Shown: piece after piece, positions 3,680-62,352 of the stretch
How positions within the stretch are numbered: the stretch's first letter is position 1
How the letters are laid out: the number at the start of each line of letters is the position of its first letter
Source of the DNA: Corynebacterium sp. HS2168-gen11
Lineage (GTDB): Bacteria; Actinomycetota; Actinomycetes; Mycobacteriales; Mycobacteriaceae
Length of the DNA stretch: 64,000 nt
Reading direction: 5' to 3'
NCBI RefSeq assembly: GCF_024834075.1
Contig: NZ_JANUXR010000010.1
Span: 60,922 to 124,921 of the forward strand
Program-made: the position numbers and the translations under genes
Notes under the pieces: model-generated
Databases searched by the model: none
What the model was told of the DNA's origin: nothing
The model's input: the letters and a program-made list of their open reading frames with translations, nothing else

Positions 3680-3807
3680 GTGGTACTATCGTGGCATACA
3701 AGTGATCATGCACCTGTTCCAACCCCTGTTCAATGGCGCTTGCTTGACGACGACCATCTGATCAGCATCTCGTTGGTATTTACATTTGTTCAAGGAGTTT
3801 TTGTTTC

Positions 3808-4971
3808 GTGTCTACCCCAATTGGTCTTGGCCTTCCAGAAGCACCGCTACCACTTTTAGCTCCGCGTCGGAAAACACGTCAGTTAAAAGTCGGAAACGTT
3901 GGCGTAGGTTCAGATCATCCGATTTCTGTGCAATCGATGACCACGACAAAAACCCATGATGTCAATGCCACCTTGCAGCAAATCGCACAATTAACCGCGA
4001 GTGGTTGTGACATTGTTCGTGTGGCATGTCCGAAAACGATTGATGCAGAAGCACTGCCACTTATTGCGAAGAAATCACCAATTCCAGTGATTGCTGATAT
4101 TCACTTCCAGCCAAAGTACATTTTCGCAGCTATTGATGCAGGCTGTGCTGCGGTGCGTGTGAATCCTGGCAATATTAAGGAATTTGATGGTCGCGTCAAA
4201 GAAGTTGCGCACGCTGCTCGCGATGCTGGTATTCCAATTCGTATTGGAGTAAACGCTGGCTCGCTGGATAAACGTCTGTTGGAAAAATACGGCAAAGCCA
4301 CGCCAGAAGCACTGGTGGAATCTGCTTTGTGGGAAGCATCGCTCTTTGAAGATCATGGCTTTGGCGATATTAAGATTTCTGTCAAGCATAATGACCCTGT
4401 AATTATGGTTGAGGCTTACCGCCAACTTGCTGCACAGTGCGATTATCCATTGCACCTCGGTGTTACTGAGGCAGGTCCTGCGTTCCAAGGCACGATTAAA
4501 TCAGCAGTGGCTTTTGGTGCGTTGCTCTCTGAAGGCATTGGCGATACTATTCGCGTTTCTCTATCAGCAGATCCGAAAGAAGAGATCAAGGTTGGCGACC
4601 AGATCTTGCAATCGTTGAACCTGCGTGAACGTGGCTTGGAAATCGTATCGTGCCCATCATGTGGTCGTGCGCAAGTTGATGTGTATACCTTGGCAGAAGA
4701 AGTCACTGCGGCATTAGAAGGTATGAATCTTCCATTGCGCGTAGCCGTGATGGGTTGTGTGGTCAATGGTCCTGGTGAAGCACGCGATGCTGATCTTGGT
4801 GTGGCTTCAGGTAACGGTAAAGGCCAGATCTTTGTGAAAGGTGAAGTCATTAAGACTGTGCCAGAATCACAAATTGTGGAAACCTTAATTGAAGAAGCCA
4901 TGAAGATTGCCGAAGCTGAAGGCCTGGAAATCAAAGAAGGCGCAACCGCGAAGGTTTCGATTACCAAATAG
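3808..4971 (+). CDS. ispG: 4-hydroxy-3-methylbut-2-enyl diphosphate synthase
   Basis: Iron-sulfur enzyme (387 aa) of the MEP pathway. It reductively opens the ring of methylerythritol cyclodiphosphate to give HMBPP, the precursor of all isoprenoids in these bacteria. The N-terminal TIM-barrel part (VGSDHPISVQSMTTTKT near residue 30) is followed by a C-terminal cluster domain with CPSCGR and GCVVNGPGEA, which carry the three cysteines of the [4Fe-4S] cluster. The GTG start at 3808 lies 10 nt after an AAGGAG ribosome binding site. The flanking genes (rseP upstream, a PBP gene and map downstream) match the corynebacterial order. Secure. Confidence 0.97.
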   Translation: MSTPIGLGLPEAPLPLLAPRRKTRQLKVGNVGVGSDHPISVQSMTTTKTHDVNATLQQIAQLTASGCDIVRVACPKTIDAEALPLIAKKSPIPVIADIHFQPKYIFAAIDAGCAAVRVNPGNIKEFDGRVKEVAHAARDAGIPIRIGVNAGSLDKRLLEKYGKATPEALVESALWEASLFEDHGFGDIKISVKHNDPVIMVEAYRQLAAQCDYPLHLGVTEAGPAFQGTIKSAVAFGALLSEGIGDTIRVSLSADPKEEIKVGDQILQSLNLRERGLEIVSCPSCGRAQVDVYTLAEEVTAALEGMNLPLRVAVMGCVVNGPGEARDADLGVASGNGKGQIFVKGEVIKTVPESQIVETLIEEAMKIAEAEGLEIKEGATAKVSITK

Positions 4972-5001
4972 CGGTAGTGCTTTGCACCCCTGATGTTCGC
5001 T

Positions 5002-5036
5002 AACCGTGCCTGCACCCGTCAGCGTCAGGCACGGTT
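5002..5036 (+). terminator. Terminator hairpin after ispG
   Basis: Perfect 11-bp stem AACCGTGCCTG (5002-5012) with CAGGCACGGTT (5026-5036), 30 nt after the ispG stop. Confidence 0.65.
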
Positions 5037-59775: not shown

Positions 59776-61095
59776 TTAACGAGACTCAACTGCATTAATT
59801 GCAGCATCTGCCCACTCTTGCCACTGTGCGGCCTGTGCTCGCAACTTAGCAGCCTCTTTCTCCTTGCCCTTATGAGCAGCTGCCTCTGCAGCAGCAGTGA
59901 ATTCCTCAACTTTAGCGATGAATTGTGCTGCACGAGCCTGTGCTTCTGGATCAGTCCTACGCCATTGAGCATCAGCCGCATTGGTCACACGAGCCTCAAG
60001 TGCACGAATCTTGTCTTCATACTCACGCACCTGGTTGCGTGGCACAAATCCAATAGCTTCCCACTTCTCCTGCAACTCGCGCAGCTTCGCACGTGCACCT
60101 TCAAGATCCGCACTTGGATCAATCAGTGCCTCATACTCATCAAGCAGTGCGTCTTTCGCCGCAGCATTATCAGCAAACGCCCGGTCACGCTCTGAAGCCT
60201 GAGCATTACGTGCCGCGAAGAAATGATCCTGTGCTGCCTTAAATGCAGCCCACAACTTATCATCAATCTCACGAGGCGCACGACCAGCTTGCTTCCACTG
60301 ATCCATCAATTCACGGAACGCACGTGCAGTATCATTCCAATCAGTTGATTCCTTCAGCTCTTCTGCGCGCTCAACTAACGCTTCCTTCAGCTTCCGAGCA
60401 GCAGCACGGCCACGATCAAGCTCAGCGAAATGAGCGCCACGACGACGATTAAAAGCATCGCGTGCACGAGAATACCGCTTCCACAACGCGTCATCAGTTT
60501 TGCGATCAATGCCACGAATGGACTTCCACTCTTCGAGAATGTCACGAATCCGATCGCCAGCAATCTTCCAGTCAGTGGATTCTTCTGCAATTTGCTCAAC
60601 TTCAGCAGCAAGTGCCTCTTTACGAGCAATTGCGGCAGCACGCTTGGCTGTTTTCTCCTCACGAGCTTTCTCGCCAGCAGCGTCAGCTTGATCGATAATC
60701 GCGCCCAATCGACGATCCAAATCATCTAAATCGCCAATAGCCGCAACATCTGCCAACGAGGTACGCAACTCTTGAGCTTTCGCCTTAATATGTTGAGCCT
60801 CATTCGAGTGTGTTTCTAACCGAGATTCGAGATAACCGACCTCAGTAGCCAGGTCATCAAAACGTGCACCATAGTGTGCAAGACCTTCAGCAGGAGTGCC
60901 AGCTTGCCAAGAGCCGATACGACGTTCGCCAGAAGCCGTCACAACGAATGCACTGCCATCTTCTTCGACGCGACCCCACTTGGAAGGATCAGAAGCAGTC
61001 TTAGACGCAACAGGTTGAACCGCGGTCTTCACCGTATGAATGCCTGGGCGTGGACCAGGACGTGGGCCTGGCTTTGGTGTAAGTGGAGTGGTCAT
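59776..61095 (-). CDS. DUF349 repeat protein
   Basis: Helical protein (439 aa) made mainly of DUF349 repeats: recurring segments of the type STDWKIAGDRIRDILEEWKSI, STDWNDTARAFRELMDQWKQAGR, and LREKWEAIGFVPRN-like, each with a conserved W near its end. The N-terminus is Pro/Gly/Arg-rich. Long coiled-coil stretches rich in Ala, Glu, Arg and Lys follow. Function unknown; found next to miaB/miaA in many corynebacteria. Of two candidate ATGs (61107 and 61095), 61095 has the better-spaced AAAAGG. Confidence 0.85.
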   Translation of the reverse strand: MTTPLTPKPGPRPGPRPGIHTVKTAVQPVASKTASDPSKWGRVEEDGSAFVVTASGERRIGSWQAGTPAEGLAHYGARFDDLATEVGYLESRLETHSNEAQHIKAKAQELRTSLADVAAIGDLDDLDRRLGAIIDQADAAGEKAREEKTAKRAAAIARKEALAAEVEQIAEESTDWKIAGDRIRDILEEWKSIRGIDRKTDDALWKRYSRARDAFNRRRGAHFAELDRGRAAARKLKEALVERAEELKESTDWNDTARAFRELMDQWKQAGRAPREIDDKLWAAFKAAQDHFFAARNAQASERDRAFADNAAAKDALLDEYEALIDPSADLEGARAKLRELQEKWEAIGFVPRNQVREYEDKIRALEARVTNAADAQWRRTDPEAQARAAQFIAKVEEFTAAAEAAAHKGKEKEAAKLRAQAAQWQEWADAAINAVESR

Positions 61096-61107
61096 AATAA
61101 ACGCCAT

Positions 61108-61398
61108 CCTTTTCCGAAATCTCGTGCCGCGCGCCGCGGCTGCCTTAATAGAAGAAACTACTCAAGGAAAGAGCCTCACAGTCGCAACATATAGTTGCTA
61201 TGTATTACATATCCTTAACTCCTAACATACCCGATAATGCTGCATAAGAAATAGTGTTCAGGGATACTCAGATGAATATTTCCCAAGAAACCCCGTATTA
61301 AGAAAATTTTAAACCGCCAAGCGAGTCGCCAAAGTACTGCTAATATGCGTATGCATCCCTAAAACAAGAAACATGTGGCTGAGGAGTCGTGATCCACT
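61108..61398. other. Divergent intergenic region (DUF349 gene / miaA)
   Basis: 291 bp. Contains CCGTATTAAGAAAAT at 61293-61307, which unites two words that recur in the next genes (ATTAAGAAAA, and CCGTATTAAG, the reverse complement of CTTAATACGG). Apart from AT-rich, possible -10 sites near 61200-61240 (TAACATAC, GATAAT), nothing further is recognised. Confidence 0.4.
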
Positions 61399-62352
61399 GT
61401 GAGCCAAAAGACATCACAAAATTCTTTAATACGGAATGACGTTGCTGATCTGCGCCCAATTGCGATCGTTGGTCCGACCGCCTCCGGCAAATCCGCATTA
61501 AGCATCGCTTTAGCGCATGAGTTTGGTGGACAGATCGTCAATGTTGATTCTATGCAGCTTTACAAAGGCATGGATATTGGTACTGCCAAACTTACCCTTG
61601 AGGAGCGAGAGGGGATTCCGCATCATCTGCTTGATGTTTGGGAAGTGACGCAGACAGCTTCGGTTGCGCAGTACCAACAGATGTCGGTGGAAGTCGTCGA
61701 TAAGCTCTTGGCACAAGGCATTAGGCCGATTATCGTAGGTGGTTCGATGTTGTACGTGCAGGCATTGCTGGATAATTGGCAGTTTCCGCCCACTGATCCA
61801 CAGGTGCGTGCAGCGTGGGAGGAACGATTGGCGGAAGTCGGCATCGATGCGCTTCATTCACTATTAAGAAAACTTGATCCTGCTGCCGCGGAGATTATTG
61901 AAGACAAAGATCCGCGGCGTACTGTGCGCGCGTTGGAAGTCATTGAGTTAACTGGGCAGCCGTTTCAGGCCAGCCAGCCGCCGAAAGACGCGCCTCCGCG
62001 GTGGAATACTCATATTATTGGGTTGCAAACTACGCCTGAATGGCTGAATCCGCGCATTGAGTTACGCACGCGGAATATGTTTGAACAAGGTTTCTTTGAG
62101 GAAGTCGACGATCTAACGGCTAATCATGGCTTAATTGCCGACTCAACTGCTGGGCGGGCGATTGGCTATGCGCAGGTACTTGCAGCTCGTGCTGGTGAAC
62201 TTGATTGGGATGAAGTCGAAGAGCGCACGGTTATCGGGACGCGGCGGTACGTGCGGCGTCAGCGGTCTTGGTTTAATCGCGATCCGCGAGTGATGTGGAT
62301 TCCGGCGTGGGAAGATACCCTCGCGCTATCATTAAGAAAACTTACGAACTAG
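61399..62352 (+). CDS. miaA: tRNA dimethylallyltransferase
   Basis: Adds a dimethylallyl group to A37 of tRNAs reading UNN codons (317 aa), the substrate step for MiaB. P-loop GPTASGKSALSIALA near residue 24, then VNVDSMQLYKGMDIGTAK (catalytic Asp), DVWEVTQTASVAQYQ, GGSMLYVQALLDN and RAIGYAQVLAA. GTG start with GAGGAG upstream. It contains two ATTAAGAAAAC words (61863-61873 and 62331-62341), each giving Leu-Arg-Lys, plus one CGTCGATAAGC (61695-61705). Its codon use looks richer in CGG/GCG/CCG than neighbouring genes, by eye. Confidence 0.96.
   Translation: MSQKTSQNSLIRNDVADLRPIAIVGPTASGKSALSIALAHEFGGQIVNVDSMQLYKGMDIGTAKLTLEEREGIPHHLLDVWEVTQTASVAQYQQMSVEVVDKLLAQGIRPIIVGGSMLYVQALLDNWQFPPTDPQVRAAWEERLAEVGIDALHSLLRKLDPAAAEIIEDKDPRRTVRALEVIELTGQPFQASQPPKDAPPRWNTHIIGLQTTPEWLNPRIELRTRNMFEQGFFEEVDDLTANHGLIADSTAGRAIGYAQVLAARAGELDWDEVEERTVIGTRRYVRRQRSWFNRDPRVMWIPAWEDTLALSLRKLTN

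Follow-up and report, generated by a model that had tools for sequence, protein, structure and literature searches.

Uptake sequences with dialects have been described for the Neisseriaceae and the Pasteurellaceae, both of which are Gram-negative. Corynebacterium belongs to a Gram-positive phylum and has a mycolic-acid outer layer; electroporation and conjugation are the usual means of introducing DNA into it. The word described here, CGTCG-NN-AAGC (CGTCGNNAAGC), recurs throughout a stretch of 64,000 nucleotides of Corynebacterium sp. HS2168-gen11 (contig NZ_JANUXR010000010.1, positions 60,922 to 124,921; hereafter the window) and throughout the genome to which this stretch belongs (the source genome). 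It most likely is a DNA-uptake sequence, a self tag that would favour the DNA of kin, a predicted function to which we assign a probability of roughly 0.8.

Among the described systems, the DNA uptake sequence (DUS) of the Neisseriaceae counts about 1,900 copies as a 10-mer in the meningococcus and comprises eight dialects, with some relatives devoid of any (PMC3630211; this and the other published accounts cited below are drawn on in part). The Corynebacterium word resembles the DUS in its hundreds to thousands of copies, its similar density, its few near-identical dialects that follow phylogeny and its absence from some relatives (PMC3630211), but it is of unrelated sequence and bipartite, with an unread two-base spacer. 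Its effect on uptake is, moreover, a prediction, and no counterpart of the DUS receptor ComP was found. With the uptake signal sequence (USS) of the Pasteurellaceae it shares a similar abundance, a reverse complement that is commoner in genes, as reported for known uptake sequences (PMC2346458), and divergent versions between relatives (PMC2346458, PMC12616744). It differs from the USS in its unrelated sequence and in showing no overall excess of inverted pairs; the predicted USS receptor is a type IV minor pilin (PMC2346458, PMC12616744), whereas none is assigned for the Corynebacterium word. The architecture-imparting or FtsK-orienting octamers are likewise chromosome-wide short words in Corynebacterium, but they are different words and strongly polar (PMC2830990), while the motif is non-polar. 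Finally, transformation of Micrococcus luteus, like Corynebacterium an actinobacterium with tad genes and comEA, depends on a Tad/Flp pilus, and tad genes and comEA are its named competence-related genes (PMC6667448); the term 'uptake sequence' does not occur in the main text of that study (PMC6667448). On our best reading the word appears to behave like an uptake sequence, and no membership among DUS or USS is claimed for it.

Copy number and anatomy of the word

The sequence-only reading had listed 15 copies of two related 11-mers in the window. All 15 were found where they had been placed, but the list was incomplete by one (9153..9163, plus strand), so that each word has 8 copies, against dinucleotide-shuffle means of 0.05 and 0.03 for the forms with TC and AT as spacer, respectively. 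Both 11-mers belong to one bipartite word, of which they are the most frequent forms, and the overrepresentation is larger than had been claimed: the window holds 30 copies of CGTCGNNAAGC and the whole genome (2.13 Mb, 26 contigs) 1,203, divided between the strands as 601 and 602, compared with 37 and 32 for the pattern read backward as a control. The proposed comparison with a Markov background, made on a sampled 399 kb of the source genome, gave counts far above expectation both for the motif (241 observed, 5.1 expected under a third-order model) and for CGTCGTCAAGC (48 observed, 0.56 expected under a fourth-order model). A search of the window against Rfam returned no family reaching its gathering score. 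The CGTCGNNAAGC sites of the window are the following.

1018..1028, minus strand, motif site
1446..1456, minus strand, motif site
3742..3752, minus strand, motif site, TC form
5050..5060, plus strand, motif site, AT form
5987..5997, minus strand, motif site, AT form
9153..9163, plus strand, motif site, AT form, absent from the earlier list
14755..14765, minus strand, motif site
17509..17519, plus strand, motif site, TC form
17936..17946, minus strand, motif site
20299..20309, plus strand, motif site, TC form
21420..21430, minus strand, motif site
29729..29739, minus strand, motif site
32426..32436, minus strand, motif site
33589..33599, plus strand, motif site, TC form
34530..34540, plus strand, motif site, AT form
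38622..38632, minus strand, motif site, TC form
42314..42324, minus strand, motif site, AT form
43644..43654, plus strand, motif site
45962..45972, minus strand, motif site
47142..47152, plus strand, motif site, AT form
51966..51976, plus strand, motif site
52900..52910, minus strand, motif site, TC form
52952..52962, plus strand, motif site, TC form
53036..53046, minus strand, motif site
54596..54606, minus strand, motif site
55833..55843, minus strand, motif site, TC form
58535..58545, minus strand, motif site, AT form
59245..59255, minus strand, motif site
61695..61705, plus strand, motif site, AT form
63953..63963, plus strand, motif site

The length of the spacer is fixed at two bases, spacers of 1, 3 and 4 bases giving 8, 14 and 6 copies where about 5 are expected (at most 2.7-fold). 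One-base variants of the motif have median ratios of 1.1 to 1.45, with single variants up to 6-fold; in the source genome the first half of the motif is near-invariant and some one-base variants of the second half are enriched two- to fivefold. A variant with C in position 9 (CGTCGNNACGC), possibly a sub-dialect, is frequent as well in the single-contig relative G016 (110 copies, 22 expected).

Outside the motif the copies have little in common. The flanks of 16 window copies are unrelated, and those of 229 copies from the source genome and 303 from G016 show a single-base bias only, reaching at most 0.5 and 1.0 bit per position and varying by species (G at −1 in 62% of source-genome copies; T at −1 and G at −2, −5 and −11 in G016). 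The trace of a mobile motif, one of the roles proposed by the sequence-only reading, is disfavoured because the copies share nothing beyond these single-base preferences. A dispersed mobile element or repeat, of which the words would be remnants, could account for the high copy number, but the shared flanks that it predicts failed to appear in either the window or the larger samples, and we regard this explanation as extremely improbable.

Dialects in the genus and switching at orthologous sites

Counted across 151 Corynebacterium genomes, with class limits set by eye, the motif is abundant in 112, weak in 8 and absent from 31, and reaches up to 1,891 copies; the conservation in relatives that the sequence-only reading had made a point to check thus extends to most, though not all, of the genus. 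CGTCG-NN-AAGC attains at least 400 copies in 96 of these genomes and 280–389 in 7 more. A second spelling, CATCG-NN-AAGC (CATCGNNAAGC), is the main form in 9 genomes, with 625 to 1,337 copies; one of these genomes also carries 352 copies of the first. The classes used for the first (CG) spelling were at least 400 copies (96 genomes), 200–399 (7, G142 excluded) and 95–199 (6, G006 excluded), and those for the second (CA) spelling at least 400 (9 genomes) and 155–399 (2, leaving out G011, which is CG). Ratios to the reversed control range from 0.13 to 1.04 in the 31 motif-free genomes, and in a family sample of 113 genomes from 30 other genera, for which the first spelling only was counted, the word stands at or near the control (ratio up to about 2.6).

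The first spelling is found in C. amycolatum, C. xerosis, C. lactis, C. striatum, C. propinquum, C. pseudodiphtheriticum, C. tuberculostearicum and C. kefirresidentii, among others, and the second in C. macginleyi, C. phoceense and strains MSK130 and KPL1814, which we take to belong to the accolens group; genomes labelled C. urealyticum, C. dentalis, C. suicordis, C. mendelii and C. spheniscorum have neither. Of 113 loci 80 were kept, and C. glutamicum, C. diphtheriae and C. jeikeium are not among them. A search for a third dialect in 20 kb each of 20 CG-poor genomes recovered the CA word in several of its carriers (−log10 p of 6.5 to 13.5) and, in the remaining genomes, unrelated words at 5 to 9, or 11.6 in the GC-rich G039, so that a further dialect may exist. 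One locus titled Mycobacteriaceae bacterium SUG2093 (L128) has a TadA that falls within Corynebacterium and a mild excess of the CA word (110 and 101 copies, against 9 and 5).

The distribution of the dialects was set against a tree of the Tad ATPase TadA, a gene tree rather than a species tree, comprising 84 of the 100 loci L078–L177; the 16 left out are incomplete or are surplus copies from Streptomyces, Microtetraspora, Bifidobacterium-labelled and other records. Classes were assigned from whole-genome counts, including 50 named loci, and from 20-kb counts for the rest, with L149 (5 CG, 4 CA), L116 (343 copies) and L154 (389 copies) placed as CG. The dialects follow phylogeny, requiring 12 changes among three states where shuffled labels require 33.7 on average and none of 200 shuffles is as low. 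Counting well-supported branches only, the second spelling needs at least 4 changes and absence at least 6. All 12 deep-branching loci are motif-free, and the other motif-free loci are nested among motif-bearing groups, which suggests that the motif has been lost in several branches. Two loci titled C. vitaeruminis and C. halotolerans (L158 and L136) have TadA proteins close to those of C. amycolatum and C. xerosis, and their labels may be wrong.

The strongest single result is a switch of dialect at orthologous sites. Two pairs of regions at about 80% identity were compared, one pair per region: the Tad locus of L111 with that of C. tuberculostearicum (L117), and the ComEC region of G006 (L055) with that of G005 (L206). 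At 24 aligned CATCG sites the partner reads CGTCG in 18, CATCG in 2 and neither in 4, one further site being unaligned, and the reciprocal count from the CGTCG side again gives 18 of 24. The background for this pattern, in which position 2 is changed and the eight other fixed bases are kept, is 2.4–2.6% of all windows. Other pairs from the same two groups, whose sites are non-independent, show 8 of 11, 4 of 5, 7 of 11 and 8 of 9 switched sites in the Tad region. Between these close groups the sites are thus old and shared, with one base changed at most of them, which points to a reader with an altered preference. Consistent with a history of dialect change, members of the CG-dialect tuberculostearicum group (L110, L117, L120, L121 and L108) retain 56 to 83 CATCG copies per strand against 1 to 13 for the control, perhaps as a fossil of an earlier dialect.

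Placement in genes and along the chromosome

Half of the copies had been thought to lie in gaps between genes. This holds for the two 11-mers, 8 of 16 being outside open reading frames (ORFs) of at least 90 amino acids, but not for the whole motif, for which the gaps hold 11 of the 30 window copies and 48 of the 241 in the 399-kb sample. Genes hold 193 of the 241 copies in the source genome sample and 305 of 327 in G016, and the reverse complement is the commoner orientation in them (124:69 and 189:116, respectively). In the source genome sample 93 of the 193 genic copies occupy one antisense frame, read on the coding strand as xxG CTT NNC GAC G; in this frame replacing G by A at position 2 of the motif converts GAC to GAT, and both codons encode aspartate.

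Codon use, dipeptide use or mutation bias might have produced the word as an artefact, which would fit with four fifths of the sampled copies being genic and with their strong frame preference. However, this explanation predicts counts near those of shuffled genes, and the prediction failed: coding copies in the source genome number 62 sense and 117 antisense against 5.7 and 2.4 in 100 synonymous-codon shuffles, and those in G016 114 and 175 against 14.3 and 8.7. Codon bias, which the sequence-only reading had already judged insufficient, accordingly yields about 8 coding copies where 179 are observed. Intergenic copies are also denser than coding ones in the source genome (8.8 against 5.6 per 10 kb), though not in G016, and the dialects are nearly exclusive, so that such an artefact has a negligible likelihood.

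Polarity was assessed in G016, sampled at 20 places. In this one genome the motif occurs 148 times on the leading and 155 times on the lagging strand and hence shows no polarity, whereas the published Corynebacterium polar octamers, serving as a positive control in the same stretches, are distributed 108 to 8 by replication strand; the published figure for C. aurimucosum is 856 to 61 (PMC2830990). A replication polarity like that of FtsK-orienting polar sequences was therefore rejected, and the segregation protein that had been proposed as a reader of the word is disfavoured, at least in the polar FtsK sense. The same ratio of 148:155, with its lack of leading-strand bias, speaks against a Chi-like recombination hotspot read by a nuclease of the AdnAB/RecBCD type. 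Chi sites are likewise numerous, genus-specific and scarce on foreign DNA, but they are contiguous words of 5–8 bases, and a fixed, unread two-base spacer would better suit a reader of double-stranded DNA than a single-strand nuclease; we consider this explanation quite improbable.

In three of four genomes the copies are spaced more evenly than a Poisson process would place them, with variance-to-mean ratios of 0.78 in the source genome, 0.66 in G005 and 0.62 in G006; in G016 (0.94) this is hardly the case. DUS and USS often form close inverted pairs, often at terminators, an accessory rather than a defining trait. All 8 close pairs in the source genome are inverted (4.4 expected); terminator hairpins or inverted pairs were rejected as an account of the word, there being no overall excess.

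Elsewhere in the same genome lies a CRISPR-like array (L023, 9037-12500; contig 20, about 69,037-72,500) with 32 exact copies of the repeat core GGGGTTTAACTCTCAAATTCCT, spaced 63-64 bases apart and following a first copy that lies 1.5 kb upstream.

Uptake genes, mobile DNA and the predicted mechanism

ComEC was found in all 151 Corynebacterium genomes, a ComEA-type region in all 151 as well (above the cut-off in 143) and a Tad pilin (DUF4244) in 148. The source genome also encodes DprA and a prepilin peptidase, and its Tad-like locus comprises an ATPase, two T2SSF-type proteins, the pilin and then two small proteins with no Pfam match, called TadE1 and TadE2 here by their place and by a presumed resemblance to the mycobacterial locus. 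Together with ComEC and ComEA these genes supply what transformation requires. The near-universal presence of ComEC, ComEA and the pilin means that the tested genes do not track the motif and do not prove a link with it. Protein identities between G006 (CA) and G005 (CG) are 69% for TadE2, 68% for ComEA, 69% for TadC, 76% for ComEC and 86% for TadA; since other genes of the same regions range from 54% to 95%, this divergence singles out no candidate receptor.

Broken Tad genes were rejected as an explanation for the loss of the motif: full-length matches were obtained at nearly all motif-free loci that do not belong to the deep motif-free clade. The motif-free L175 has short TadC and TadE1 matches, and TadC is also short in the motif-bearing L100. 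In the deep motif-free clade (L091, L093-L097, L139, L141, L155, L159, L162 and L167) the TadB and TadC profiles match one ORF, and in most motif-bearing loci two separate ones. ComEC ORFs seem longer (about 650-880 amino acids) in many motif-free genomes and shorter (about 420-620) in many motif-bearing ones, an uncounted impression with exceptions both ways and confounded by kinship.

Mobile DNA is largely devoid of the word in the records sampled. In five plasmids and two phages, 291,497 bases in all, 5 copies were counted; an eighth record, plasmid pTP10, has 7 in 50,000 bases, every one of them between 5,777 and 13,129, a stretch of about 7 kb with chromosomal-type genes such as mshC. Bases 1-20,000 of the window had no match among phage records, and in viral contigs one stretch fitted a TadA pattern and none was confirmed.

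Binding sites of an abundant chromosome-organising or nucleoid protein, unrelated to uptake, might also be missing from most of these plasmids and phages. Such sites would account for the presence of the word on both strands, rather evenly spread, and for the fact that no tested uptake gene tracks it; dialect switching implies some protein that reads the word, and a change in this protein would explain the dialects. However, the word has no polarity, 31 of the 151 genomes, on several branches, live without it, and nine fixed bases at 1,200 places, mostly genic, would seem to exceed any structural need. We consider this explanation unlikely. The DNA-uptake-like word, another of the roles initially proposed, is favoured instead by the two dialects, the site-by-site switching, the lack of polarity and the scarcity on sampled plasmids and phages.

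Several observations weigh against an uptake sequence. Evidence for the switch comes from two genomic regions in two close groups, and more distant CA and CG species mostly lose sites, the partner showing the other dialect at 10 of 50, the same at 3 and neither at 37 (12 of 15 pairs having any aligned site). Ten further stretches of G006 had no collinear partner in G005: in this larger comparison, in which collinearity was guessed from two anchors for ten paired stretches and 20 more G005 stretches were added, only the Tad and ComEC regions aligned (the ComEC stretch having been chosen by its known place), together with two short matches. Motif-free genomes likewise have ComEC, ComEA and the Tad pilin, and no column in alignments of ssd, TadA, TadB, TadC, TadE1 and TadE2 cleanly splits the dialects. 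Inverted pairs closer than 60 bases show no excess when four genomes are taken together (17, with 16.3 expected), and the intergenic density in G016 is below the coding one (5.9 against 8.0 per 10 kb). The sample of mobile DNA is small. Finally, a literature search, whose coverage excluded most subscription papers and all bioRxiv preprints, gave no natural transformation or uptake sequence of a Corynebacterium among the matches listed.

Taken as an uptake sequence, the word would be bound by a surface receptor specific for the tag, possibly a minor pilin of the Tad-like pilus, which would capture DNA. The captured DNA may then be pulled through the mycolic-acid outer layer and handed on to ComEA and ComEC, after which DprA would assist its recombination into the chromosome. 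Since the cell would take up and recombine tagged fragments more often than untagged ones, the word would come to occupy permissive positions across the chromosome. A shift of receptor preference by one base would be followed by existing sites one by one, giving rise to dialects, and sites would decay once uptake was lost. It seems probable that Corynebacterium possesses an uptake-sequence system of its own, which would be the first in the Actinomycetota, with a bipartite tag in at least two dialects that was lost several times and that would serve to screen DNA at a Tad-type pilus before the mycolic-acid outer layer.

If so, self-specific uptake would have evolved once more, in a cell that has a barrier in its outer envelope, and gene exchange among skin and nasal corynebacteria would run within dialect groups. 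A system of this kind in the Actinomycetota, unrelated to the known ones, would be a case of convergent evolution in how transforming bacteria recognise their own DNA. It would also be a sign that this genus, whose members include skin, nasal and industrial bacteria, is naturally competent, and it could aid the delivery of DNA into harmless or industrial strains. The two dialects, switched between close relatives, would provide matched pairs for finding the receptor and for asking whether dialects bound gene flow.

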